NCBI GenBank assembly: GCA_033032865.1
Contig: JAWHQI010000028.1
Location: 11,117,001-11,181,000, forward strand
DNA from: Dactylorhiza incarnata
Taxonomy: Eukaryota > Streptophyta > Magnoliopsida > Asparagales > Orchidaceae
DNA length: 64,000 bases
Reading direction: 5' to 3'
This document shows positions 2,993 through 57,256 of this stretch, piece by piece. Every line of letters starts with the position of its first letter. The first letter of the stretch is position 1. A program made the position numbers and the translations under genes. The notes below the pieces were generated by a model. That model was not told the origin of the DNA. It saw only the letters and a list, made by a program, of their open reading frames with translations, and searched no databases.

Positions 2993-3022
2993 ATTTGCAG
3001 GAAGGCTAAGGAAACAGAAGAC

Positions 3023-4418
3023 GTGTGGTATTTGGACTCAGGCTGCTCCAAACACATGACGGGCAATAAAGCAAAATTCCTTAGCCTAGAAAAGAAGAAA
3101 GGAGGAATATTGATGTTTGGCGATAACAGTAAAGGAAGGATCATGGGAGTTGGTACAGTGGGTAATGCATCTTTTCTTATATCAAATGTACTTTATGTGA
3201 AAGGATTAAAACATAACCTAATATCTATAAGTCAACTGTGTGATAAAGGTTTAGACGTACTTTTTGAATCTTCCACTAACCTTTGCAAGATTGTTAATCC
3301 TAAAACAAAAGATGTGTTATTAACTGCACCTAGAATTCATAATGTTTACATAGTTTCATTTCATGATCTTTCTAAATCTTCTATAAAATGTTTTATAACG
3401 AAAAATGATGAATTAGAATTATGGCATAGACGCTTAGGCCACGCTAGTACAAAGCTCATCTTAAAACTAGCAAAAAGAGAATTGATTAGAGGATTGCCTA
3501 AGTTAAATGGAAATTTATCTTCATTATGCTCTCCATGCCAAAAAGGCAAATTTACTAAGTCATCTTTTAAAGCAAAAACGAAATTTCTACATCAAAACCT
3601 CTACAATTAATTCATATGGATCTCTTTGGTCCCGTTAACACTACGAGTCTTGGTGGTAGATTATACACTTATGTTCTCATAGATGACTATTCTAGATATT
3701 GTTGGACTTTATTTCTCTCCTCCAAATCTGATGCGTTTTGTGAATTTTCAAAATTATGTACTCGCATTCAAAATGAATTAGATTTAAAAATAAAATGCAT
3801 TCGCTCAGATCATGGAGGTGAATTTGAAAAATGAAAATTTTAAATCTTTTTGTGACATGTTAGGTATTAAGCATGAGTTCTCCGCTCCACGCACACCTCA
3901 ACAAAACAGTGTTGTAGAACGGAAAAATAGGACAATATAAGAACTTGCACGCACCATGCTATCTGAATATAAATTACCTAAGTATTTTTGGGCAGAAGCC
4001 GTAAGCACTGCATGCTATGTCATGAATAGAGTTATGTTTCGCCCATCATTAACTCTCACACCATATGAACTCTACTATAAAAAGAAACCTAACGTATCGT
4101 ATTTTAAAGTATTTGGATGTAAATGCTTCATTCTTAATACAAAAGATTCTTTAGGAAAATTTGATGAAAAATGCGATGAAGTAATATTTCTTGGTTATTC
4201 TTCAACTAGTAAAACATATAGAATATTTAATAAAAGATCAAGTAAGGTTGAAGAATCAATTAATGTCAGATTTGATGAGTTTGTTCCATGTGCAGAGAAG
4301 CTCCCTACAGGTACCGATGATGAACCTTTGCCATCCTTGGAGCACGACGAAGAAGAACCGTCCAAAGAAGAGGAGGAGAAGTCCAAAGAAGATGAATATG
4401 TACCTCCAAGCATTCTAA
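3023..4418 (+). pseudogene. pol: pol of element A: protease and integrase (broken)
   Basis: The protease starts with WYLDSGCSKHMTG, with an intact D-S-G active site, near 3026. The integrase zinc-binding segment (WHRRLGHAS and CSPCQKGK) follows at about 3420-3560. The catalytic core continues with MDLFGP at 3616, a second Asp in IRSDHGGEF near 3800, and the Glu in NSVVERKNR near 3910. Breaks: a frameshift near 3590-3615, another at about 3830 and an in-frame TAA near 3939. PR-INT preceding RT places the element in Ty1/copia. The last part (about 4150-4418) is the variable integrase C-terminus, rich in Glu and Lys. Confidence 0.9.
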
Positions 4419-6059
4419 ACTTCTCCAAAAATCATCCAAAGGAGCTAGTCATTGGGGAACCTTCTACTGGGGTAAGAACTCGGTCCTCTCTTCATGAAAC
4501 ATTTTCAAATATTTGCTTTGTGTCTGAAATTGAACCTAAAAATGTTTCCACCGCTTTAAATGATGAATTTTGGTTTTTGGCAATGAATGAAGAGTTAGGA
4601 CAATTTGAAAGAAATAAAGTTTGGAATTTAGTAGAAAGACCATCTAATCATCCAATTATTGGCGTAAAATGGATTTTTAAAAATAAGCTAGATGGTGAAT
4701 CTAGGATTGTAAGAAATAAAGCACGTTTAGTTGCTCAAGGCTATTCACAAATCGAGGGGGTAGATTTTGAAGAAACTTTTGCACCCGTAGCTTGCTTAGA
4801 ATCTATACGAATATTTTTGGCATTTGCGAGTTTTAAAAGAATAAAATTATTTCAAATGGATGTTAAAAGTGCCTTTTAAACGGGTTTATTAAAGAAGAAG
4901 TTTATGTAGAACAACCCCCCGGTTTCATAAATGAAAATTTCCAAATCATGTTTACAAATTAGAAAAAGCGCTTTATGGTTTAAAACAAGCGCCCCGTGCA
5001 TGGTATGATCGTCTTACATCATTTTTGTTAAAGCACGGTTATGTTATGGGAAGTGCAGACAACACACTCTTCATTAAGCATAAAAATAATGAATTAATTA
5101 TTCTACAAATATATGTTGATGACATCATTTTTGGAGCCACTAATGAAGAGTTGTGTAATGAAGTAGTCTTAATAATGAAAAATGAATTTGAAATGAGTCT
5201 TGTAGGAGAGCTATCATATTTTCTTGGTTTTCAAATTTCACAAAGAACTGATGGTATTTTTATTTGTCAATCAAAATATGTTCATGATATGCTTAAACGA
5301 TTTGGATTTGAAAATCTTAAACAAGCTTCTACTCCTATGAGTGCTTCTTTAAAACTAGGAAAAGATGAATCTGGAATTTCTATTGATCAAACGCTATATA
5401 GAGGAATGATAGGTTCTCTTCTTTATTTAAGTGCATCTAGACCAAATATAATGTTTGACGTATGTTTATGTGCTTGCTTTCAAGCCGATCCAAAAGAATC
5501 TCATTTAAAAGCGGTAAAACATATTTTTCGTTATCTAATAGGGTCATCTAAACTAGGATTATGGTACCCACATAATGACTCTTTCACACTCCACGACTAT
5601 TCCGATTCGGACTACGCCGGGTGCTCACTAGATAGAAAAAGCACTAGTGGTACATGTCACTTTTTAGGACCCTCTTTAGTTGCCTGGTCTAGTAGAAAAC
5701 AATCTTCGGTTGCACTCTCCACCACGGAGGCCGAATATATTGCACTTGGTAGTTGTTGTGCACACGCGTTATGGATGAGCCAAACACTAGAGGACTTTGG
5801 ATTTCATCTCAAAAACATAGATCTTAAATGTGACAACAAAAGTGCAATAGACCTCACATATAATCCCGTACACCATTCTAGATCCAAACACATCGACGTT
5901 TGTCATCATTTCATTAGGGATCACATTAAGAAAGAAAATATAAAAGTAAGCTTCATTGGGACGGACTCTCAACTTGCTGACATATTTACTAAACCCCTTC
6001 CCGATGCAAGATTTCGATTATTACGACTTGAATTAGGTGTCCTAGATCTTTCAAGTTAA
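4419..6059 (+). pseudogene. pol: pol of element A: reverse transcriptase and RNase H (broken)
   Basis: The RT starts with the copia segments NEVWNLV-like, GVKWIFKNK and [10 protein letters not shown] (4600-4750). Single-base losses at about 4877 and 4938 shift the frame. The active-site YVDD is at 5112-5123. RNase H follows with SDSDYAGC and the RKSTSG motif (about 5600-5660) and ends at TAA 6057-6059. From 5025 to 6059 the frame is open for 344 codons, the least damaged part of the element. Confidence 0.93.
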
Positions 6060-6990
6060 AACATGCTCACAAATACAATTTTCTTCATTTTAACCATCCA
6101 AAACATCTCCTAAAATTTGCAACTTCAGCATGGAACTACTATTGGGACACTTAATCAAGATCCAAAATTAAAATTACCAAAATCCTAGAAAATCGTTCAC
6201 TGTCTCCCGCGCTAGCGCTACCGTAGGCGCTAGCGTCCATGTTCGATTTTCTGTATTTTTTAAATTTAGAAAAATTTCTAAAAATATATTAATCTATATT
6301 TTCAACTTAGTTTTGCACTTCTGTGTTTCTTTATTTTTTGAAAAATCAAATACAAAACTAGAAAAACCAAATTACAAAAAATATGTTTTTCTTTTTCGCT
6401 TGTGTTGTTTCCTTTGTTTAAAGTTCATCTTTATGCAAAAATCAAATATAAAAATTACAAAAATATGATTTTGTTTGCTAAAATCAAATACAAAAATATA
6501 AAACTTTAAAACTATATAAAAAAAAACTGTTTGATTTTTTGTGAAAAATCAAGCCTGATTTAATCTATTATTTAGAAATTCTACAATGTTGCAATTTATC
6601 TTTTCAAACTACTTTGGACATTGTCTTTCTTCATGCTTTGATATATCTATTCAAATGTGCATCAATTATAGTTTAAAAGTTGTGTAGGATTAAGCTTAGC
6701 ATGCCTCTAAGTATAAGAAATGTTTTATGTTTGATAATGATATTTATTCACTCACTTTTTTTTGGCATTGTCTATATATGTATTTAATCTAAAGAATGCT
6801 TGTGTATATTTTGTATTAGTACAATGGACTAAAATTGCACAAGTATCTTACCTACACTCCTTATTTTGCACTCTTAAAAATTAAGAAAAGTGGTTATGTT
6901 TTTTCATAAAATCTATTGATTTCCAAAACAAGTGTATTCGGAGAACTTTGTACAAAACAAAATTATAAAATAAATGACAAAGATAACTCC

Positions 6991-8246: not shown

Positions 8247-9318
8247 TGTTGGAACATGGTCTTCCGCATCTCCTAGGTTTGAGAATAACAAATCCTATGT
8301 GTATTTGATCTTGTGTGTCTTAGTGTGCAGGAAAACAAAGTCCACATGACTCAAGGATGGCTGTCCCCAAAATTGAGGCCAGAATTCTAACATGGCCACT
8401 AGCGTCGGCGGTAGAGATAGCGCCCGGCGCTAGCGATGATTAGCGCGATTCCGGTAGTGTTTTTAGAAGGAGCTAGCGCCCGGCGGTAGCTACTAGCGCT
8501 GGCGGTAGCATGGCGCACAAGAGGAATAGAGCAAAATGTTGCCGCGGATAGAAGATCCTGCCGCGCAAAATGTTACTTAATCAGGGATAACGCCGAAGGT
8601 AGCAGTAGCGTCGGCGGTAGCTCTTTGGCTATAAAAGGACCCCCTCTCCTCTTGTTTTCGAGACACCTATTTGCATACACCTCAGAGAGAGAGTGCTAGA
8701 ATTCCTGAGGCCTGTCTTGGCCGAAATTTGAGGTCCCAGCGAAGCTCTGCCAATTTCTGAAGGAGAATTCCATCACGCCGAATCCAGACGAAGTCCGCTT
8801 CGACAAATGCTGATTCTACATCGGATCTTCACCTCCATCTTCAGAAGTTCATCTTAAGGGAAGTTTTATTATTTTATTTATCTTTCTTTGTAAACGGCAG
8901 TGAAATCGCCTCGTGTTGGCGACTAGGTCTGGGGTAGGACTTAGGGCTGAAATTCGCCTCATGTTGGCGACTAGATCTAGGCTAGGTCTAGGGGGTGCTC
9001 GAGGCCACATCCGGGGAAGGATTGGCTAGAGCGGCTTGAGGCCGAATCCGGGAAGGAGAAGGCTAGGGCCACCGGTTCGCGGGGAAGCGAGTCGGGATAG
9101 AAAATGAAAAGAGCTTTTATTATTCGCCTCCGATCTCTAGCGCCATTGAGATCAAGTTTTGTAAAACTTATTTAATATCAATAAAGCTTGTCTCTCTTTT
9201 TGTTTTACTTGACTTCTTGTTTTAAATATTGCAATATTCCAAAGTTTTTCTAAATAAAATCTAAAGTTTTTGAAAACCCTTATTCACCCCCCCTCTAAGG
9301 GCGCCGACCGATCCAACA
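8247..9318 (+). repeat. Element A 3' LTR
   Basis: Complete 1072-bp LTR, TGTTGGAACA to CCAACA, preceded by the polypurine tract. It carries the same palindrome modules (about 8398-8625), TATA box and leader stem-loops as the 5' LTR. H gag sequence resumes directly after it. Confidence 0.95.
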
Positions 9319-46018: not shown

Positions 46019-47179
46019 TGTTGGAACAAGGTCTTCGCATCTCCTAGGTTTGAGAATAACAAATCCTATGTGTATTTGATCTTGTGTGTTTAAGTGTGCA
46101 GGAAATAAGGTCCATATGAATCAAGGATGACATAAGAAGGTTGCCCCCAAAATTGGGCTAATAATTCCAACATGCCCACTAGCGCCGACAGTAGCACCTA
46201 GCGCCCGATGCTAGTTAGTATTAGCGCAATCCCGGGAGTAAATTTAGAAGGAGCTAGTGCCTGGCAGTAGCGGATAGCGCATGCGGTAGCGCGAAGCACA
46301 GAAGGCAAGGAGGGAATGTTTCCTCAGATTGAAGATTCTCCCGTGCAGAATATGTCCTAATATGGGATAGCGCCGGCGGTAGCGCTAGCGCAAGCACTAG
46401 CGCTGAGGCTATAAAAAGAACCCTTTGGATCCATCTTCTTCATCCTCTACTACTCCCAAATTCCAAAGCTTCGTGCCACATCATATAGAGGAAGGTTTAG
46501 AGAGATACTCCCACAAATCCATGAAGGCTTAAGGAGATCCGTGGAGAAGTTTTCAACACGCGTCATCATCATGACGAAAGACCGCATCGACTATGATCAT
46601 ACTCTACGGGTCTTCATCTACTTCTCTAAGAGATCCATATAGGGAGTTTTTAATATTGTTGTTCTTTTCATTCTTGTAATCGCTTGGTAAATTCGCCCCG
46701 TGTAGGCGATTAGGTTTGGGTAGGACTTAGGGCAGAAATTCGCCTCATGTTGACGACTAGATCTAGGTTTGGTGTAGGGTGTGCTCAAGGCCATATCAGG
46801 CGTTGTATTGGCTAGAGCGGCTTGAGGATGAATATGGGGAAGGATAGGCTAGGGCCACCGGTTCGTTGGGATACGAGTCGGGATAGAAAATGAAAAAGAG
46901 TTTTATTATTATTCGCCTTAGATTTCTAGCGTTATAGAAATCTAGTTTTGTAATCAATTTTATTAATAGTAATCATGTCTCTCTTTGTGTAATAAAATTG
47001 ATTTTGTTCTTCATGTATCTAAATTGTTTATTATCATCTCCTTCATCATAAAACAATTTAGATCTTTATTAAAATCACTATTTTAATCTCTTATTATTTC
47101 AAATATATCAAATATAAGAAAAAGTTAAAACCCTTATTCACCCCCCCCCCCCCCTCTAAGGGCACCTACCGATCCAACA
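46019..47179 (+). repeat. Element C2 5' LTR
   Basis: TGTTGGAACA to ATCCAACA, 1161 bp. The first ~100 bases match element A closely. It has type-A palindromes (46180-46406), GCTATAAAAAG near 46410, stem-loop TCGCC/GGCGA at 46693-46709 and a run of 14 C (about 47143-47156) near the end. Confidence 0.9.
46180..46420 (+). promoter_or_regulatory. C2 U3: type-A palindrome modules and TATA box
   Basis: Three paired modules at about 46180-46215, 46252-46292 and 46368-46406, spaced as in element A. The last copy, TAGCGCT, precedes GAGGCTATAAAAAG. Confidence 0.78.
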
Positions 47180-47181
47180 AG

Positions 47182-47193
47182 TGGTATCAGAGA
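47182..47193 (+). other. Primer binding site of C2, tRNA-Met type
   Basis: TGGTATCAGAGA begins two bases after the LTR; the last base deviates from the usual C. Confidence 0.85.
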
Positions 47194-47227
47194 AGTTTTA
47201 TTCCAATCGGCTTAACGACCGGGAATA

Positions 47228-47812
47228 ATGGCGTCTCATGATCTCGCTTCTATTAGTGGGGCAAATTTTTATGAAGAAGAAAAATCACTAGCACCATATT
47301 TATTTAAAGGGACAAATTATAAAGGGTGGAAAATTTTAATGGAAAGGTTTATTAAAACTTTAGATATCGAATCATGGAATTTAGCAATAGTAAGACCTAC
47401 GGATGAATCAAATAAAAAGGAACAACATCTAAATGCAAAAGCCAAACACTATTTATTTTGTGGTTTATCAAATGAAGTTTTCAAATTGATATATTGTTTT
47501 TCTAGTGCATACAAAGTATGGAAATTTCTTGAAGAAATGTATGATCTTCCACTCGCAGGTATGGAACAAACACAGGAGGAGAAGGACATACAAGCATCCA
47601 CCATTATTCAGGAAGATATCTCTCGTTGCAAAACCATGGAGATCATGGAAATTAACTTAGAAAAAGAGAGCAATACATCAAGAGAAAAAGAAGATGAAAA
47701 TTCATTTATGATGGAGGAAGGCCTAAAAGACAACAAAGGAACTTCATGTTCACATTTTGCCTCTTCTAATAGCGCTGTAAGAAAGTCTAATTCTTGTTGT
47801 GTGATAACTTCT
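47228..47812 (+). pseudogene. gag: C2 gag, 5' part (cut by D)
   Basis: 195 codons from ATG 47228: a copia Gag N-terminus (APYLFKGTNYKGWKILMERFIKTLDIESWNL, then AKAKHYLFCGLSNEVF and YKVWKFLEEMYD) and a Glu-rich tail. The first codons resemble element A. The frame is open to the D insertion at 47813 and continues in phase at 57257 once D and one TSD are removed. Confidence 0.86.
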
Positions 47813-47994
47813 TGTTGGGTATATTGCCATCAATAGTACCTTGATTTGAAGAGGCATCACTCTCAATGCTAAGGTCATATTGTATTTGATGAGTTATACT
47901 TGTGTAAGATATACAGGTGCAGGTGACTCAAAAGGAAGGGCCAAACATGCCCTTAGATGTGGAGAAATCATCTTCCAAAAGATGAAGTTTTGTC

Positions 47995-48550
47995 TCAGCC
48001 GAACCGCTGAGACGAGGGGGGTAAAACCGCTGAGACGAGGAACCGTCTCAGCGTATCCGCTGAGAAGAAGGTGCCTCCACTGAGAAGTTCATTATACGCT
48101 GAGAATCAGCGTGGTCATCGAACTGGGCTCGACATTCATCGAACATTGTATGCCGTTCGTCGACCGCTGAGACGAGGTCGAAGCAGAAACCGCTGAGACG
48201 AGATCAAAGCTGAAGCCGCTGAGAAGACACACTAGGCAAGATCGTCGAACGTTGAACGCCGTTCGACAAACGCTGAGACGAGGAGCCATCTCAGCGGAGC
48301 CGCTGAGAAGAAACATAAGGCAAGTTTGTCGAGCGCTGAGCTGGCAAGATCATCGAACGCAGGGGACAGCTAGTTCGTCGAACGCAGAGTGTTCCACGTT
48401 CATCGAGCGCAGTCCTTCTCTACGGAAAAGTAGGGCGGCGGGTCCTGCGGCTAAGACTAGTCGCAGAAAAGCTGTGTGGGGTCCATCGACTTCTCCCAAA
48501 CCTCTCAGCAGATCAGCTAAGAGCCGTTGAAGATCAGAGATGTATAAAAG
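47995..48550 (+). promoter_or_regulatory. D U3: type-D (CGCTGAGAC) palindromes and TATA box
   Basis: ACCGCTGAGACGAGG recurs many times, with TCGTCGAACGC between. A perfect 9-bp stem CGCTGAGAC/GTCTCAGCG is at 48028-48036 and 48045-48053, and CGCTGA/TCAGCG at about 48098-48112. TATAAAAGG follows at 48543. The 3' LTR has the same series at 55795-56200. Confidence 0.8.
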
Positions 48551-48845
48551 GAAGAGTTAGGGCACATTTGAAACTCTCGGCAACGTGCGAATGAGATCAA
48601 CTGTTACATTGACGGCTGAAGCTCTCGTCTTCTTCCTCCTGCTCACTGAACAAGAAGAAGAAGAAAACAGAGAAAGAAAGTTAGCTCCTCTGCAAGAAGG
48701 AGCAAGGTGATCTTACATCACTTTGTCGAAGAGGAAGATCAAGTTAGTTGCTGTAATCAACATCTTCAACAATAAGAAGCACAGTCAGTGCAGGATTTAC
48801 AGGAGAGTACCTCTACTGTAGAATAAATTTCTAAATCATTTATCT

Positions 48846-49216
48846 GTAGGGCATCTTGCCTGAGTTGTAAGACCATTTGGTCTGAGTTTGTAGGAACCTG
48901 AGGGTTCTGAGCTATAGGGCTGAAGGCCTGAGTGTAGGATCTGGAGCAGATCTGAGGTAGGGCTTAACAGCCTGAGGTAGGACCAGGAGCTGGTCTGAGC
49001 TGTAGGAGGAGGAGTCCTCTGAGTGGTAGGACCTGGGAGAGGTCTGAGTTGTAGGACATTATTGTCTGAGCTGTAGGAGGTGTTATCCTCTGAGTTTGTA
49101 GGGCAGCTGTGCCTGAGGTAGGAGCCGGAGATAGCTCTGAGTTGTAGGGACTTGTGTCCTGAGGTAGGATCATTCTTGATCTGAGAAGTTCTGAGGAACT
49201 TGTGCTGTAAGCTCTT
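48846..49216 (+). repeat. Array of ~17 stem-loops with different stems (D LTR)
   Basis: Each 20-33-base unit reads about TGTAG-stem-loop-stem'-CTGAG. Stems in order: GGCA, AGACC, GAACC, GGC, GATCT, GGCT, GACCAG, GAGGA, GACCT, GACA, GAGG, GGCA, GAGC, GGAC, GATCA, AAGTTC and GCTC, each paired with its complement across a 2-8-base loop. The flanks are conserved, the stems are not. The array lies downstream of the TATA box, so in the transcript. The 3' LTR copy is 56634-57016. Confidence 0.88.
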
Positions 49217-49455
49217 TGAGCCGAGTTTGGAGAAGTTGGCCCTGTCTAACACACTGTTAGAAGGGTGGAGGGGGAAGTGGAGTACCAATAGACACACTGT
49301 CTTTGGGAACCACTATAAATTATTGTGTGCTTTCTGTGTTTGCTGATTTGCTTGAACCAACTCAGAAAACAGCTAAAGCTAATCAAGTAAAATTTAAAAG
49401 ACCTATTCACCCCCCCTCTAGGTGACTTAGACTTCAAACCTTATATTCTTTCAAG

Positions 49456-49533
49456 TGGTATCAGAGGCAGGTTGGTCAAAAAGGACTTAACAGTCTGACC
49501 AGATCCTAAAAGGTTTAGTCTAGTCAAATCCCA
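49456..49533 (+). other. Primer binding site and short leader of D
   Basis: TGGTATCAGAGGC at 49456 differs from the canonical TGGTATCAGAGC by one extra G. About 65 bases of leader lead to the gag ATG at 49534. Confidence 0.85.
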
Positions 49534-52074
49534 ATGGCTTCCAGTGGATTGCAAAAGGAAATGAGGTCCATGAAGTTGCCCATATGCAACAAAGAGAATT
49601 TTGGCATATGGAAGCAAAGGATCAGGTTGTTTATGGAAGCATCTGATCCAAGGATCTTCATTACAGTTGAAGAAGAACCTTTCACCTTTCACGCTGCATC
49701 CACTATTGATCCAACAAGAAGAGTGGCCAAACTATTCAGAGATCTGACCAAGGATGAACTTGAGTTGTTCACCATGGACAAGAGGGCCCAGAACATCATT
49801 GTGAATGCTATTGATGATTCCACCTTTCAAAACTTGGTACACTGCACTTCTGCCAAGGAAATGTGGGATACTCTAATAGTATATATGGAAGGGACAACTG
49901 AAGTTAGGGATGATAGGAAGTCACTCCTAAATCAAAAGTATGAATCCTTCATGCAGCAGAGCCAGGAAAGCATATCCATGTACTATGAGAGGTTCTTCAG
50001 ATTAGTCAATGAGCTGAGAACCTATGAGAGGGCTTTCAACAACTATGAGTTGAATGACAAGTTCCTTAGATCTCTCACAAGAGACTGGGACACAAAGATA
50101 TGTGCCATCAGGGAAGTGGCCAAGCTTGGTGAGACCCCAACTCACGCTCTGTTTGGGAAGCTGCTTTCCTATGAAATGTAGATGTCTACAAGGAAGGAAG
50201 AGGACACATCTTCAAAGGTAAAAGCAATGGAGAATTCTGTGGCTCTCAAAGCTGATAGCTCTAAGAGGAGCAAGGGGAGGATAGTGTCTCCTCCAAGGAG
50301 AAGAGCTGAACCTGAAGTCAGCACCTCAGGAGGCTCTTCCTCTGATGAAGAATTTGCTGCCTTCTCTAGGCAGTTCAGGAGGATGATGAAGAGGAAGCCA
50401 TGGAGGAACATGCCCTCCTCATCATCACACTACAAAAAGAACAGCAACAAATCTGAAAGACTGCACCCAAAGGGTGACAGGTATGATTGAAAACCCAGTA
50501 AACATTCTACTAATAATATAATCTATTATAGCTGCAGCAAGCCTGGACATATCATAGCTGACTGTCCAATCAAAAGAAAGGATAGTGGTGAAATGAAGCA
50601 TCATCACCACAAGGATAGGAAGGGAGAAAAGTCACTCCTAGCAAAGAAAGAAAGAAGCTGGAGTGAGTCTGATCCTTCAACATCAGGGTCCGACAATAAA
50701 GAAGAAGCCAACATTGGGCTGTATGCAGCAGAAGAGGATGAAGACAATCCAGCTGCAAAGGTTGGAATCAGGGCCCCTCTATCATACTCAGATAGTGATG
50801 AAGAGGAGGATGAAGAAGACACTATTCAGCTAGGCCTTATGGCCTTCACTGATGAGGAAGAGAGTCAGAATGCTTCTGACAAGGTTCAGGTACTATCTCA
50901 TTCCACTTCATTTTCTGATTATGAGACCAGTCCAGAATCTGTTGCACCTTCATCAATTGATGGAAGGGGCATGGATGATGAGGAAGAACTCAATCAATTG
51001 ATTGATAAATATGGTGTTTTTTTGGAGGCTCTGAAGAAGAGCAAGAAGCTTGCCAAGAGGCAAGCCCAGGAAATTGTTGATCTCAAAGTAACTAAGGATG
51101 TCAACACTGAACCTACCACCTTGGTGGCTCAGATGAGCAGACAAATGAGTCATTTACATGGGTTAACTATTGTGCAATTAAGCACTATTTCCCTGAAGAA
51201 CAAGGTCATCAAGGACCTTGAGAAAAAGCTTGAGAAGGAGAAGAGCCTGGTGGCTCAATTCTCCAAGCCCAGATCTGTGCTTCCTATCATTGACACCTTC
51301 TCCTCTCAAACCAATAGGAGAGGACTAGGATTCAAGAAAATGGAAGTAGGAGAAGGGAGTGGAGTTAAGAGCAAGGATAAGGCTAAGCCTCAACCCACCT
51401 TTCGAAATGTGATACTTCCCTCCAACAAGTATGACCATGAAAGCATTTATGGTCACTGGAAGAATGAGAGGTGCTATAGGGAGGAAAATGCTCCTTCATA
51501 TAGTGGAAGAAAGGGAATGAGATTGAGTGCCATGAAGGCTCCCCATGAGGAAATTCAAATGGCCCAACATGGACCATTTGTTTTTGGTACTTCAGCCACT
51601 TCATTCAAGAATGAGAAGGCAAGCCCTTCTAAGGTTGGATCTGTCAAGAACATGACTGGTGCCAATTCTGTAAACATATCTGAGTGCTCAGTGTCAGATG
51701 CCATCAAATCTTGTATGACTGCCAAGTCATTGCAAGCTGATGCCATCAGGACAACGAGCATCAAGATAACACACAGAATGACATTTAGTCAAATAATTGA
51801 TGAGAGGAACAGGAAGAATGCTGCTGTATCTATTCCTAAACATAAGGACTGTGCTACACAATCCTCAAGAAATGCTCAGAAAAGAAGATACAACATTCAT
51901 GAATGTTGGTGCTGTGGTAAAGTGGGACACTTTGCCATAGATTGTTGGTACAACCCCAATGTACCTAATGCAAAGAAGAGCCTTCCTGTAAAGGGAGCTG
52001 CCAGAGTCAGGTCTTTTGATCATGCTAACAAGAACCTAGGATCCAAGTCACCTTGGGCTCCTAAGGGATATTAA
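49534..52074 (+). pseudogene. gag: D gag, 847 codons with two in-frame stops
   Basis: A single frame from ATG 49534 to TAA 52072, broken only by TAG 50179-50181 and TGA 50488-50490. Residues 1-215 are a copia Gag core (NFGIWKQRIRLFM, then KEMWDTL, SLLNQKYESFM and SISMYYERFFRLVNEL). A Lys/Arg-rich part and a first zinc knuckle near 50533-50572 follow; its first Cys is Tyr (YYSCSKPGHIIADC). A long acidic/coiled-coil segment and an intact knuckle CWCCGKVGHFAIDC (51905-51946) come next, and it ends SPWAPKGY, the usual segment before protease. It is likely the RNA-packaging protein. Confidence 0.9.
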
Positions 52075-52560: not shown

Positions 52561-55008
52561 ATGGCGCCCAAGATTGCGAAGGAATTGCAAGAAGGTTGTG
52601 AGTTGGTGAGGGATGGGTTTCTCCATGCCTCGCCAGAGATTTTGAGTGTTATTTCGTTGATTTCTGATGCGGGACTAGACTACTTGCTATCTGAACCCTC
52701 TCAGATATTCAAGCAAGAAGTGCTATAGTTCTTTGCAAATGCCAAGCAGTCGTCTTCTAAGGATGGCTTAACTTCTAAGGTTGGTGAAATTAGGGTGAAA
52801 CTGTCCCCTAAGAGACTTGAAAAAGTACTACACCTTCCTAGAGTGGAAGAAGAGGAAATATCTGCAGAAGACAAGGAGCATGCCTTGAAGTGGTGTGAAT
52901 ATAGTGCTCCCCGGACCTCATCACTGAAGAAGAAATTCTTCAATCAAAAAGGGAAGTTGTTATGTGATATTGTGGGAAAGGCACTCCTGTGCAAGCCAGG
53001 CTCACATGACACAATCTCTCAACCCATGTTTGAGATGATTGTAAGGATCATTTTAAAGAAAAGGACATGCTGGGGAAATGTCCTGTACCAAAGGATTAAG
53101 CAATGCCTGCAGGCTCCTAACCTAGGAAGGATCATTTCTCTCTACCTACTGAAGGCATATCCTGGAGAATTCTCCTCAATCAAAGGTATTAATATCCATT
53201 ACCTGAAAATGTTGGATATTAAGACTCTAGATAGATCCACAAGGGTTCTCCCCATGAGCCAACCCTCTGTTTTGGCAGAGTTGAAGGAGAAGAAGAAGAA
53301 AGCTCTGAAGAGTGGAGAAGGAGGTGCCGAATCCTCTAAGAAGAAAGGTGATCCTCAAGAGCGCATGGAAGATGAAGAAGGAGAAGATGTCCCCAGGACT
53401 GGTGAAGATGGTGCTCTTCAAGGAAGAGTTGATTCTACTGAGCCAACTAAGATTAATACTGATCCAGCTATTCCCTCTGCTGAAGATGAACCAATGAACT
53501 CACCTATCCATGGTTCTCCTAGTCAAAATTCTCCATATAGGGATGCTCCAAGTGAGGGGGAGCACAACCCTCTCTTTTGTGATATTGGTGGGGGTGCTAG
53601 TGAGGGGGAGCACAACCCAAGTGCTGAAGATCTGCATAGACCAGAACCTGGAGTGGAGAAAGAAGTGGCCCAGGAAAGGCCAGCTACTATGCTAGACACA
53701 TCTGATCTGCTGAACTCAATTAAATCTTTTATTGAGGGTCAGATGTTGTCTATGAAAGAGACAGTTGCAGAAAAGGTCCATGATGTCTCTGCTCAGATAA
53801 GGGATGGGTTGTATGCAATAAGAGCTGCATTGACTAAGGAGATCCAGGCCAGTGAGCAAAGAATGGAGTCAAGAGTGGCTGCAGTGAGAACTGAGCTGAA
53901 TGCCCAGGTTAATGATGTCAAAACTGCATCATATCATATCCTCCTGCAAATGACAAGATGGTTTGAAATGGCCAAAGGCACAGTTGGTGTTCAACACACT
54001 GTACTGAAGCAAATTGCTGATCATCAAGGGGTCTCCACCAAAGACATCACATATGTAAAGAATCATCTTTACAAACACCAAAATGTCTGGGAGAATGCAG
54101 TTGCAAGGATGACACAAGTGGTCAACACATCAAGCAGCCAAGTAAAGTCCCACATTGACAAGGCAAAGGAATACATTTTGGATGATGTGGACAGCTCTCT
54201 TCAAACTCTCTCCCAATCCATAATAGATCAACACTCTGAAATAGAGAAGAATTTAATGGAAAGTGGCAAAGAGGGGGAGGAGAAGGTTACCAATCTACAT
54301 GCTAAGATGAAAGGAGCTCACATCAAGCTGTATAACAACACGGAGTCTGCCCACAAGCTGATACTCTCCAATCAAGCAGAAGCCAACAAGCAAGTGGTGG
54401 AAGTGGTCAACAATGCTTCTAGTGTTATTCAAGAAAATATCCTAACCATGGTCAAAAAGGTTACTGATAATCAGTGGGACTCAAGCTTAAAAGTGCTGCA
54501 AGGAACAAGAATTGCTTTGAATCTTCCAATCTTGAACCCTGACAGAAATGAACACTTTGACTTCCAAAGTCAATCAAATCTAATTGCTGATGAGAGAGCA
54601 GCAAAGAGGAGAAGGGCAGAGGGCATTCAAACTGCTGAAGAATATATGTCCCAGAAAAGAATGGAAAGATTAGAGGATCCACTCCATGAAGATGACAATT
54701 TAGAGTTGGACACAATTGTTGTCGATACTTGGGTGAGCCATGTTAATCAAATGAAGGACATTGACCATGTCTACTCAGCTGCTGAATGGATTAAGCACCT
54801 TGAGAGGGAATCCTTAAGGGAAAGGATTCTCAAAGAAAACTTGGTGAGAAGGGAAACTCCTGTAAGGATTCCCACAAGATATCTTCCCAAGCCTCTTCTA
54901 TACTTCAAAGTAAAGGAGAAGATCAAGGCTGCTGCTGAAGCTAGGAAGAGGAAGTCCAAAGATGGAGAATGCTCTTCCCAGGGTCCATCTAAGAAGACCA
55001 TGCCTTGA
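52561..55008 (+). CDS. Second ORF of D: plant transposon-associated protein with coiled coil, one in-frame stop
   Basis: One frame of 815 codons plus stop from ATG 52561, interrupted only by TAG at 52726-52728. Residues ~1-220 resemble the plant-specific 'putative plant transposon protein' family (Transposase_32 type): a helix ending in YLLSEPS, a FFANAK-like segment and RVKLSPKRLEKVLHLP. No catalytic residues are evident. Residues ~235-375 are acidic and low-complexity, with SEGEHNP repeated. About 390-670 is a long coiled coil or helical array (MESRVAAVRTELNAQVNDV and similar). The C-terminus is Lys/Arg-rich (EARKRKSK), a possible nuclear signal. It occupies the place of pol. The function is unknown. 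Confidence 0.8.
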
Positions 55009-55604
55009 AATATTTTCTTTTACCAATCATCAGTTGTATTGTTTGAAATATCTGCACTGAACATTTAAATTGGAATGATATTTCATCTTTTGATCATAAT
55101 GTTGTGTTTGTTACTATTGCTATATGTACTCTGTACCTTTATCTTTAGTATTCGGGAGCTAGAATGAGATGTTCAATTTGAACAGGTTCAGTTATTACAG
55201 AAATTGCTCACCAATTAAGGGGGAGCAAATTCCCTGCTCAGGTTGAGGGGGAGATGGCAAATGCCAAGATTGTATAGGTTGACCTATAAGTTGATCCAAA
55301 GGGATCTATAGATGTTTCCTCCCAATCCATAATGGGATAAATAGTTGAAGAAACCAGAAAGGGGGAGAAAGAGCCATTGCTAAGTAAGAACCTATGCTTT
55401 GGATATTAGCAAGAGGGAGATAGGGCCTATGATACACAAATCATTTTTCTGTGATAGCCATTGCTAAGTAAGAACCTATGCTTAGGATATTAGCAAGAGG
55501 GAGATAGGGACTATGCTACACAGATCATTTTTCTGTGATATGATTTTTGTTATTAACGTACCTTAGCATTGGGGATGTTCTGCCTTCTTCAAATAGGGGT
55601 AGAT
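55009..55604 (+). promoter_or_regulatory. D 3' non-coding region with several polypurine tracts
   Basis: TTAAGGGGGAGCAAA (55217), TTGAGGGGGAGATGG (55245) and AGAAAGGGGGAGAAAG (55359), then a duplicated ~70-bp block with GCAAGAGGGAGATAGG (about 55401-55450 and 55462-55520). The LTR-adjacent tract AATAGGGGTAGAT (55592-55604) is weak. Repeated purine tracts fit Sirevirus ancestry. No gene is seen. Confidence 0.8.
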
Positions 55605-57251
55605 TGTTGGGTATATTGCCCTCAATAGTACCTTGATTTGAAGAGGCATCACTCTCAATGCTAAGGACATATTGTATTTGATGATCTATACTTGTGTAAG
55701 ATATACAAGTGTAGGTGACTCAAATGGAAGGGCCAAACACGCCCTTAGATGTGGAGAAATCATCTTCCAAAAGATGAAGTTTTGTCTCAGCCGAACCGCT
55801 GAGACGAGCGGGGCAAAACCGCTGAGACGAGGAGCCGTCTCAGTGTATCCGCTGAGAAGAAGGTGCCTCCGCTGAGAAGTTCATTATACGTTGAGTATTA
55901 GCGTGGTCGTCGAACTGGGCTCGACATTCGTTGAACGCTGTACGCCTTTCATCGACCGCTGAGACGAAGTCGAAGCAGAAACTACTGAGACGAGATCAAA
56001 GCTGAAGCCGCTGAGAAGACATACTAGGCAAGATCGTCGAACGCTGAACGCTGTTCGACAAACACTGAGACGAGGAGCCGTCTCAGCGGAGCCGCTGAGA
56101 AGACACACAAGGCAAGTTTGTCGAGCGATGAGCTGGCAAGATCGTCGAACGCAGGGGATAGCTGGTTCGTCGAACGCAGAGTGTTCCACGTTCGTCGAGT
56201 GCAGTCCTTCTCTACGGAAAAGTAGGGCGGCGGGTCCTGTGGCTAGGATTAGTTACAGAAAAGCTGTATGGGGTCCACCAGCTTCTCCCATACCTCTCAG
56301 CAGATCAGCTAAGAGCCGTTGAAGATCATAGATGTATAAATGGAAGGGTTAGGGAACATTTGAAACTCTCAGCAACATGCGAAAGAGATCAACTGTTACA
56401 TTGATGGCTGAAGCTCTCGTCTTCTTCCTCCTGCTCACTGAACAACAAGAAGAAGAAAACAGAGAAAGAAAGTTAGCTCCTATGCAAGAAGGAGCAAGGT
56501 AATCTTCCATCACTCCGTCGAAGAGGAAGATCAAGTTAGTTGCTGTAATCAACATCTTCAGCAACAGGAAGCACAGTCAGTGCAGGATCTACATGAGAGT
56601 ACCTCTACTGTAGAATAAATTTCTAAATCATTTATATGTAGGGCATCTTGCTTGAGCTGTAAGACCATTTGGTCTGAGTTTGTAGGAACCTGAGGGTTCT
56701 GAGCTGTAGGGCTGAAGGCCTGAGTGTAGGATCTGGAGCAGATCTGAGGTAGGGCTTAACAGCCTGAGGTAGGACCAGGAGCTGGTCTGAGCTGTAGGAG
56801 GAGGCGTCCTCTGAGTGGTAGGACCTGGGAGAGGTCTGAGTTGTAGAATATTATTGTCTGAGCTGTAGGAGGTGTTATCATCTGAGTTTGTAGGGCAGCT
56901 GTGCCTGAGGTAGGAGTTGGTGATAACTCTGAGTTGTAGGGACTTGTGTCCTGAGGTAGGATCATCATTGATCTGAGAAGTTCCGAGGAACTTGTGCTGT
57001 AAGCTCTTTGAGCCAAGTTTGGAGAAGTTGGCCCTATCTAACACACTGTTAGAAGGGTGGAGGGGGAAAGTGGACTACCCATAGACACACTGTCTTTGGG
57101 GAGCCACTATAAATTATTGTGTGCTTTCTGTGTTTGCTGATTTGCTTGAACCAACTCTGAAAACAGCTAAAGCTAATCAAGTAAAATTTAAAAGACCTAT
57201 TCACCCCCCCCCCCTCTAGGTGACTTAGACTTCAAACCTTATATTCTTTCA
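55605..57251 (+). repeat. Element D 3' LTR
   Basis: 1647 bp, same architecture as the 5' LTR, with more scattered differences than between the K LTRs, so an older insertion than K. In the stem-loop array (56634-57016) most differences fall in loops or flanks. One unit reads GAGTT/AACTC where the 5' LTR has GAGC/GCTC with a mismatch. Confidence 0.94.
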
Positions 57252-57256
57252 CTTCT

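Follow-up and report, generated by a model that had tools for sequence, protein, structure and literature searches.

Variable but Pairing Stems in a Tandem Hairpin Array of a Copia-Type LTR Retrotransposon from Dactylorhiza incarnata

Results and Discussion

Element D and Its Setting

The window, by which we mean the whole 64,000-nucleotide stretch of Dactylorhiza incarnata DNA analyzed here, contains several LTR elements typical of plants. One of them, element D, reads from its sequence as a Copia-type retrotransposon of plant type. Its 5′ LTR (47813..49453) and 3′ LTR (55605..57251), both on the plus strand and delimited by LTR alignment, self-BLAST, and reading of the ends (TG...CA in the 5′ LTR), are 94.2% identical by self-BLAST. 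The five bases CTTCT at 47808-47812, on the left of the element, recur at 57252-57256 on the right and represent a target-site duplication. A primer-binding-site-like TGGTATCAGAG was read at 49456..49466 (plus strand) and presumably matches initiator Met tRNA. A domain search of reading frames identified gag at 49534..52074 (plus strand), with a Copia-type gag domain (Retrotran_gag_2, PF14223, E 5.4e-21) and a zinc knuckle (PF00098, E 2.7e-05); this frame is interrupted by two stops, which end at 50181 and 50490. In pol's place stands a second open frame of 759 aa (52729..55008, plus strand) with weak similarity (E 0.023) to PF20167, a putative plant transposon protein. None of the 11 plus-strand frames of at least 50 aa in element D contains a reverse transcriptase (RT), integrase (IN), or protease (PR) domain, a scan confined to frames of that length, such that decayed pieces could sit in shorter ones. 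Because no RT, IN, or PR domain was found and the gag frame has two stops, element D is probably non-autonomous. TR-GAGs are non-autonomous, gag-only LTR elements that have LTRs, a primer-binding site, and gag and are without pol; element D shows this same make-up, with its second long frame as an extra.

Searches beyond the window added little. A pattern built on gag gave 1 and 91 matches in viral contigs and 134 in genome contigs, with none confirmed in either set. Homologue searches with the gag protein (3/47 candidates) and with the 759-aa frame (1/7993 scored candidates) led no further.

Element D is nested in another Copia-type element (46019-47836), which has LTR-like DNA akin to element A and a primer-binding-site-like sequence at 47182, and whose gag start was interrupted by the insertion of element D. 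Elsewhere in the window, a Copia-like element has LTRs (1-1058 and 8267-9318) that are 95.9% identical and, as judged by eye, pol-like frames at 2993-6059; the 3′ end of its LTR has TATTCACCCCCCCTCTA in common with element D, and it is a possible autonomous relative. An 84-bp head-to-tail duplication (95%) occupies 55372-55539, directly 5′ of the element D 3′ LTR.

Layout of the Hairpin Array

The 5′ LTR of element D contains an array of 17 hairpins. Sixteen share one register, in which GTA(G/A) is followed by an arm of 4–6 bases, a loop of 3–8 bases, the complementary arm, and (T/C)GAG, with ATAG as the 5′ flank in one case. The flank-anchored register places hairpins 3 (48890..48911), 5 (48934..48956), 6 (48957..48976), 8 (49002..49023), 9 (49026..49048), 12 (49098..49117), 14 (49144..49163), and 15 (49164..49185) on the plus strand, as are all others. 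Hairpin 2 (48867..48886) has a GTAA flank, hairpin 4 (48914..48932) the ATAG flank, and hairpin 17 (49207..49225) the flanks GTAA and CGAG. The only unit outside the register is hairpin 16 (49186..49201), AAGTTC-TGAG-GAACTT, which has a 6-bp stem and a TGAG loop, is without the GTAG flank, and was kept out of the pair counts. The original prediction had placed the array at 48846..49216; its start holds, and its end moves to 49225, where the final in-register unit stops, for a span of 48846-49225. A copy with 16 in-register units, located by the same flank-anchored register, occupies 56638..57017 of the 3′ LTR (plus strand).

Flanks are uniform and stems are variable. GTAG occurs in 13/16 units and TGAG in 15/16, counts for which the search pattern itself demands most of the letters. 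Units 1–15 run end to end, with 14 linkers that are 8–11 long. Hairpin lengths at 48915-49185 tend to alternate between short and long, and over the same stretch tandem-repeat finding returns a 43-bp unit equal to two hairpins; from these two observations, the array may have grown by two-hairpin duplication. The minus strand is open across the array in both LTRs (48836-49297, 153 aa; 56628-57044, 138 aa), and a search for homologues of this antisense frame gave 0/513 candidates.

Units Differ in Sequence but Keep Their Pairing

Pairs were counted in flank-anchored registers; a MAFFT alignment misplaced the 3′ arms of units. Flanks, not pairing, fixed the register, but the pattern demanded an initial purine and a final pyrimidine, so that pair 1 is in part built into the search. 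Over pairs 1–4 of the 5′ LTR, 63 of 64 are Watson–Crick and one, in hairpin 4, is G-U; in the 3′ LTR the counts are 59 and 3 of 64. With pair 1 left out they become 47 and 1 of 48 (5′ LTR) and 45 and 2 of 48 (3′ LTR). Sliding the partner by 1–4 positions either way leaves 5–16 Watson–Crick pairs in the 5′ LTR and 5–19 in the 3′ LTR (n = 64), and the best slid register reaches 33/64 with G-U counted. When 3′ arms were permuted among 15 units, the observed 66/75 Watson–Crick pairs were reached in 0/200,000 permutations (null mean 38.9, sd 3.85, maximum 57). The result is the same for pairs 3–5 only (36/45, null 15.6; 0/200,000) and for the 14 units of the 3′ LTR that match the pattern (61/70, null 34.5; 0/200,000). 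Both permutation and slides control composition, not history. The claim of 17 hairpins whose stems differ and nevertheless pair is thus confirmed, and an excess of complementary over random stems is found among the units of one element, in its two LTRs.

Comparison of units with one another over pairs 2–4 gives 360 cells (120 unit pairs), which are non-independent because the units are probably duplication relatives. The pair is the same in 130 cells and differs in 230, and all 230 are paired: both partners have changed in 220 of them and a single partner in 10, and none is unpaired. Hairpins 5 and 7 (the latter at 48977..48999) differ by four bases between their flanks; each of the four lies in the stem and is compensated. 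Plain tandem-repeat decay, which the original prediction had already judged a poor fit, is rejected on the arm permutation and on these comparisons, with 0/360 cells unpaired.

Every one of the 16 units has G-C at pair 1. Pair 2 is A-T in 10, G-C in five, and C-G in one; pair 3 is C-G in eight, T-A in three, G-C in three, and A-T in two; and pair 4 is C-G in nine, A-T in three, G-C in two, T-A in one, and T-G in one. Pair 5 is Watson–Crick in 6/8 units long enough to have it. That the stem changes almost every time, as had been proposed, is accurate for whole arms (13 distinct among 15 units) and overstated for their first four bases, where only nine distinct arms occur and pair 1 never varies.

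Scanning the whole window for exact flanks around a 4-bp Watson–Crick stem gave 25 matches, all in the two arrays, and none of them on the minus strand. Allowing a single mismatch in the flanks raises the plus-strand count to 30 (28 in the arrays) and adds two on the minus strand, outside them. Hairpin density alone is less distinctive: in counts per 350 bases, the array window has the highest value for stems of at least 4 (15 vs. a mean of 6.8, and up to 13 elsewhere), and for stems of at least 5 the best array window has nine, equaled by a window at 6201. The array pattern was absent from viral contigs, and in genome contigs it matched seven bacterial loci with 1–2 motif copies each and no array, where 3–4 were estimated by chance. 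No Rfam family reached its gathering score in the window; at E up to 1, the interval 48500-49500 gave two weak minus-strand miRNA-like matches, both outside the array. A box C/D array was rejected, there being no RTGATGA in the array, as was a G-quadruplex with four G3 runs, of which there is none; four G2 runs fit at two places.

Two properties of the pairs count against selection acting on RNA. The G-U share is 1/64, or 1/48 of the variable cells (P = 0.01 and 0.04, respectively, if the usual RNA-stem rate is the assumed 10%), and purine–pyrimidine orientation is flipped in 120/230 differing cells, which stepwise drift through G-U would not yield. Near-pure Watson–Crick pairing (63/64) and frequent flips are both what would be expected if template switching inside quasi-palindromes, during cDNA synthesis or DNA replication, copied one arm onto the other; an arm mutation would then be rewritten in the partner arm, and no selection on each stem would be needed. 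Perfect inverted repeats with concerted arms are described in nematomorph mitochondria, and template switching has been invoked for them (PMC6649704). Such switching leaves the like linkers, the ATG-poor leader (below), and the single register unexplained, and by eye no loop is the reverse complement of another unit's loop. We consider it possible, if on the unlikely side.

Drift Between the LTRs After Insertion

The two LTRs, presumably alike when the element inserted, have since drifted apart. Differences number 54/757 in U3, 15/274 in the presumed R, 4/155 in linkers, 6/156 in stems, 6/70 in loops, and 5/222 in the post-array stretch. Five stem pairs differ. One, in hairpin 13 (49118..49141), is compensated (C-G to T-A); two are now G-U in the 3′ LTR, in hairpins 1 (48846..48864) and 10 (49051..49070); and two are mismatched in the 3′ LTR, in hairpins 10 and 11 (49073..49094). 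Compensation is thus near-universal among units vs. 1/5 pairs after insertion, which suggests that pairing is maintained during replication of the element and not by the chromosome, a contrast that rests on five pairs, two of them still wobble-paired, and on one element in which paralogous units serve as proxies for family copies.

The same five pairs constrain template switching. In hairpin 13, four changes between the LTRs cluster within 10 nt (P = 0.049), as a multi-base switching event would produce; six stem changes placed at random would include a compensated pair with P = 0.056–0.071, so hairpin 13 alone is weak evidence. Of the two marks of such switching, loop inversion or a multi-pair event, this single element offers one clustered paired change. 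Since 4/5 changed pairs have not returned to Watson–Crick after insertion, switching would need to act in reverse transcription. In a specific form that we regard as unlikely, the element's own reverse transcription would write the palindromes by fold-back switching in cDNA, with stems that drift yet stay perfect and linkers alone selected for sequence. If this were true, the array would form a tract of structure that is sequence-free and corrects itself, with varied stems that keep each hairpin local and make deletion between repeats harder.

Position in the Leader

A presumed TATA box, TATAAA at 48543..48548 (plus strand), places the presumed transcription start near 48570. The array would then lie downstream of this start and ahead of the ATG of gag, with U5 as its likeliest place. 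The presumed leader (48570-49533) contains one ATG vs. 12.2 expected (P = 0.000 in 1000 shuffles), a scarcity that suits a leader scanned by ribosomes. The array itself has none in the 5′ LTR (4.8 expected, P = 0.002) and none in the 3′ LTR (5.8 expected). U3, which is outside any leader, is also somewhat ATG-poor (6 vs. 10.9, P = 0.023; 3′ LTR, 7 vs. 11.1, P = 0.068), and the stretch from start to array in the 3′ LTR has four ATGs vs. 3.6 expected.

A candidate poly(A) signal, AATAAA followed by a T-rich stretch, lies at 48822..48827 (plus strand), is unique within 48500-49470, and is kept in the 3′ LTR at 56614. Under plant poly(A) rules it would direct cleavage near the array start. If AATAAA is the signal used, R ends before the array, which may therefore belong to U5 and not R and be carried near the 5′ end of the RNA only; an alternative AT-rich candidate, TATAAA at 49314, lies downstream of the array. 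The proposal that the array is in the transcribed part of the LTR agrees in part with where the array sits, past the TATA box and in a stretch ahead of gag that is poor in ATG; its corollary that both RNA ends carry the array is made doubtful by AATAAA at 48822.

The position of AATAAA immediately upstream of the array, together with TGTA before the stem in 10/16 in-register units, might instead indicate that the linkers matter, as TGTA/GTAGG motifs in RNA 3′-end formation or splicing, and that the hairpins are spacers. Spacers need no pairing, yet 64/64 cells pair, and 6/16 units are without TGTA; we find this reading very improbable.

Folding of the Array

Folding energy is mildly unusual for the whole array (z = −1.80 on the plus strand, −2.83 on the minus strand), with z = −1.24 for the whole leader. 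Local folding, with spans of at most 30, is more distinctive: the array reaches −116.4 vs. an arm-permuted mean of −94.1 (sd 5.3), and 0/200 permuted arrays are as low, vs. 5/200 without the span limit. Single units have a mean energy of −6.1 kcal/mol on the plus strand and −4.9 on the minus strand. In the RNA ensemble of the array, the probability that a unit forms its own hairpin is 0.56 on the plus strand, where 6/16 units have at most 0.01, and 0.78 on the minus strand; the values are 0.41 and 0.71 for the whole leader and 0.32 and 0.58 for the 3′ LTR array. Because these ensemble probabilities are higher on the minus strand, thermodynamics alone gives the plus strand no preference.

The strand difference extends to DNA parameters (0.81 minus, 0.70 plus) and is consistent with hairpins that fold as single-stranded DNA in minus-strand strong-stop cDNA, where they would aid strand transfer or shield the intermediate; U5, if the array is U5, is also copied first. 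A flank G-U pair that exists on the plus strand only and the avoidance of ATG, which points to RNA, weigh on the other side, and we judge a role as single-stranded DNA improbable.

Silencing had been among the roles first proposed. Dicer-like cutting requires long stems, and stems of 4–6 bp make it look unlikely here; a Dicer hairpin precursor was rejected for the same reason. Copia LTRs of maize are enriched in predicted hairpins, which are associated with small RNAs and methylation; the stretches considered in that study were likely to pair and 21 nt or longer (PMC10760457). That small-RNA silencing uses the array as a substrate, as proposed for those LTRs, or that the array persists in spite of such use, seems to us scarcely probable at all.

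Comparison with Known Systems

A variable-stem hairpin array in an LTR does not appear among the matches listed in the open-access literature, in agreement with the original statement that no described equivalent was known. Several systems share some of its features. Sirevirus LTRs, which also belong to plant Copia elements, carry many short palindromic motifs (RMs) (PMC2829016). These have 66.5–100% identity within an element and lie upstream of the TATA box, as described there, whereas the array has variable stems and lies, at 48846-49225, downstream of TATAAA at 48543; it thus differs on both counts, like-sequence repeats and location. The U3 of element D does contain a palindrome on the 5′ side of the TATA box (48028..48053) that recurs almost unchanged at 48271-48296; in contrast to the stems of the array, the two resemble each other in sequence. 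Between 47992 and 48308, U3 holds several palindromes based on CGCTGAGACG / CGTCTCAGCG that are similar to the motifs of Sireviruses.

Given that this LTR also has palindromes in U3, ahead of the TATA box as in Sireviruses (PMC2829016), the array could be imagined as an extension of such motifs, working as double-stranded DNA palindromes in the form of cis-regulatory binding sites or cruciforms. Its unit centers lie a mean of 22.8 apart (sd 1.20, 15 units), a regularity that is not clearly beyond chance (P = 0.13), and regular spacing of hairpin centers is accordingly unsupported. A binding site would keep its sequence, yet the stems vary, and the array is on the wrong side of the TATA box; we assign this explanation a low probability.

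In the packaging-signal sets of HBV, STNV, and MS2, multiple stem-loops that have a short motif in common jointly bind coat protein, which is the mode of action proposed below for the array; the HBV signals have RGAG in the loop (PMC7612645). Those sets are dispersed over the genome, whereas the array is tandem and has like linkers instead of a universal loop motif; its shared motifs are the flanks, plus an apical GAG in 6/16 in-register units. TIGR-Tas arrays are likewise tandem, with variable yet palindromic units and conserved short motifs, but their units have 8–12-nt guide spacers, work with a Nop-domain protein, and come from prokaryotes and phages (PMC12045711). The array differs in belonging to a plant element and in having no variable spacer (14 linkers) and no RTGATGA box C, and the scanned frames of element D contain no Nop domain. 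Sponge mitochondrial hairpin elements resemble the array as many short, often tandem hairpins, two types of which are separated by a few complementary substitutions; within a type, however, stems are conserved and loops are substituted, nearly the reverse of the array (PMC2800124).

Hairpins shaped by template switching share compensatory multi-base changes that keep stems perfect, but they are described for RNA genes and DNA replication, and "reverse transcri" and "retro" occur 0 times in the main text of that paper (PMC8794818). BARE is a plant Copia element with packaged RNA and with dimerization and packaging signals; the source mentions no hairpin array for it, and "hairpin", "stem", and "secondary structure" occur 0 times in its main text (PMC3735527).

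A Proposed RNA Hairpin Platform and What It Would Mean

To the reading that the array is a row of leader RNA hairpins kept by selection for structure at the RNA level, we give about an even chance. Counted for it are the pairing counts, the arm permutation, the drift contrast between units and LTRs, the uniform flanks, the ATG-poor leader, local folding, and a Gag with a zinc knuckle; counted against it are the scarce G-U pairs, the orientation flips, the low plus-strand ensemble values, and the ATG-poor U3. The original prediction had named two options, selection for structure or a mechanism that writes inverted copies. Conservation of pairing over sequence stands, and both options are alive and could not be separated on one element, the inverted-copy mechanism because pairs are near-purely Watson–Crick and orientation flips are frequent.

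Under selection for RNA structure, the leader RNA would present ~17 short stem-loops on conserved linkers, UGAG...GUAG. Pairing would have been selected while the element replicated, with stems drifting by paired changes and linkers held by sequence. A protein that recognizes the linker together with the hairpin base may use the row as a multivalent platform. Gag, as the presumed RNA-binding protein of the element, is the obvious candidate; with its zinc knuckle, and supplied by element D itself or by an autonomous partner, it might bind the array in order to package the RNA or assemble dimers. The variety of the stems may keep the hairpins local and reduce deletion between identical repeats. 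Taken by itself, a role in packaging is a candidate that we advance tentatively and with some doubt.

To our knowledge, little has been learned about the signals that plant LTR elements use in packaging and in their leaders. If Gag binds the array, it would represent a packaging platform built of repeats. What maintains RNA stems, selection or copying by polymerases, is a question raised for template-switch hairpins (PMC8794818). In the array, nature has replicated one structure 17 times in parallel, with its pairing retained and its sequence at liberty to vary, and with these replicates, copies of the family could reveal whether selection or polymerase copying is responsible for the upkeep of RNA stems.
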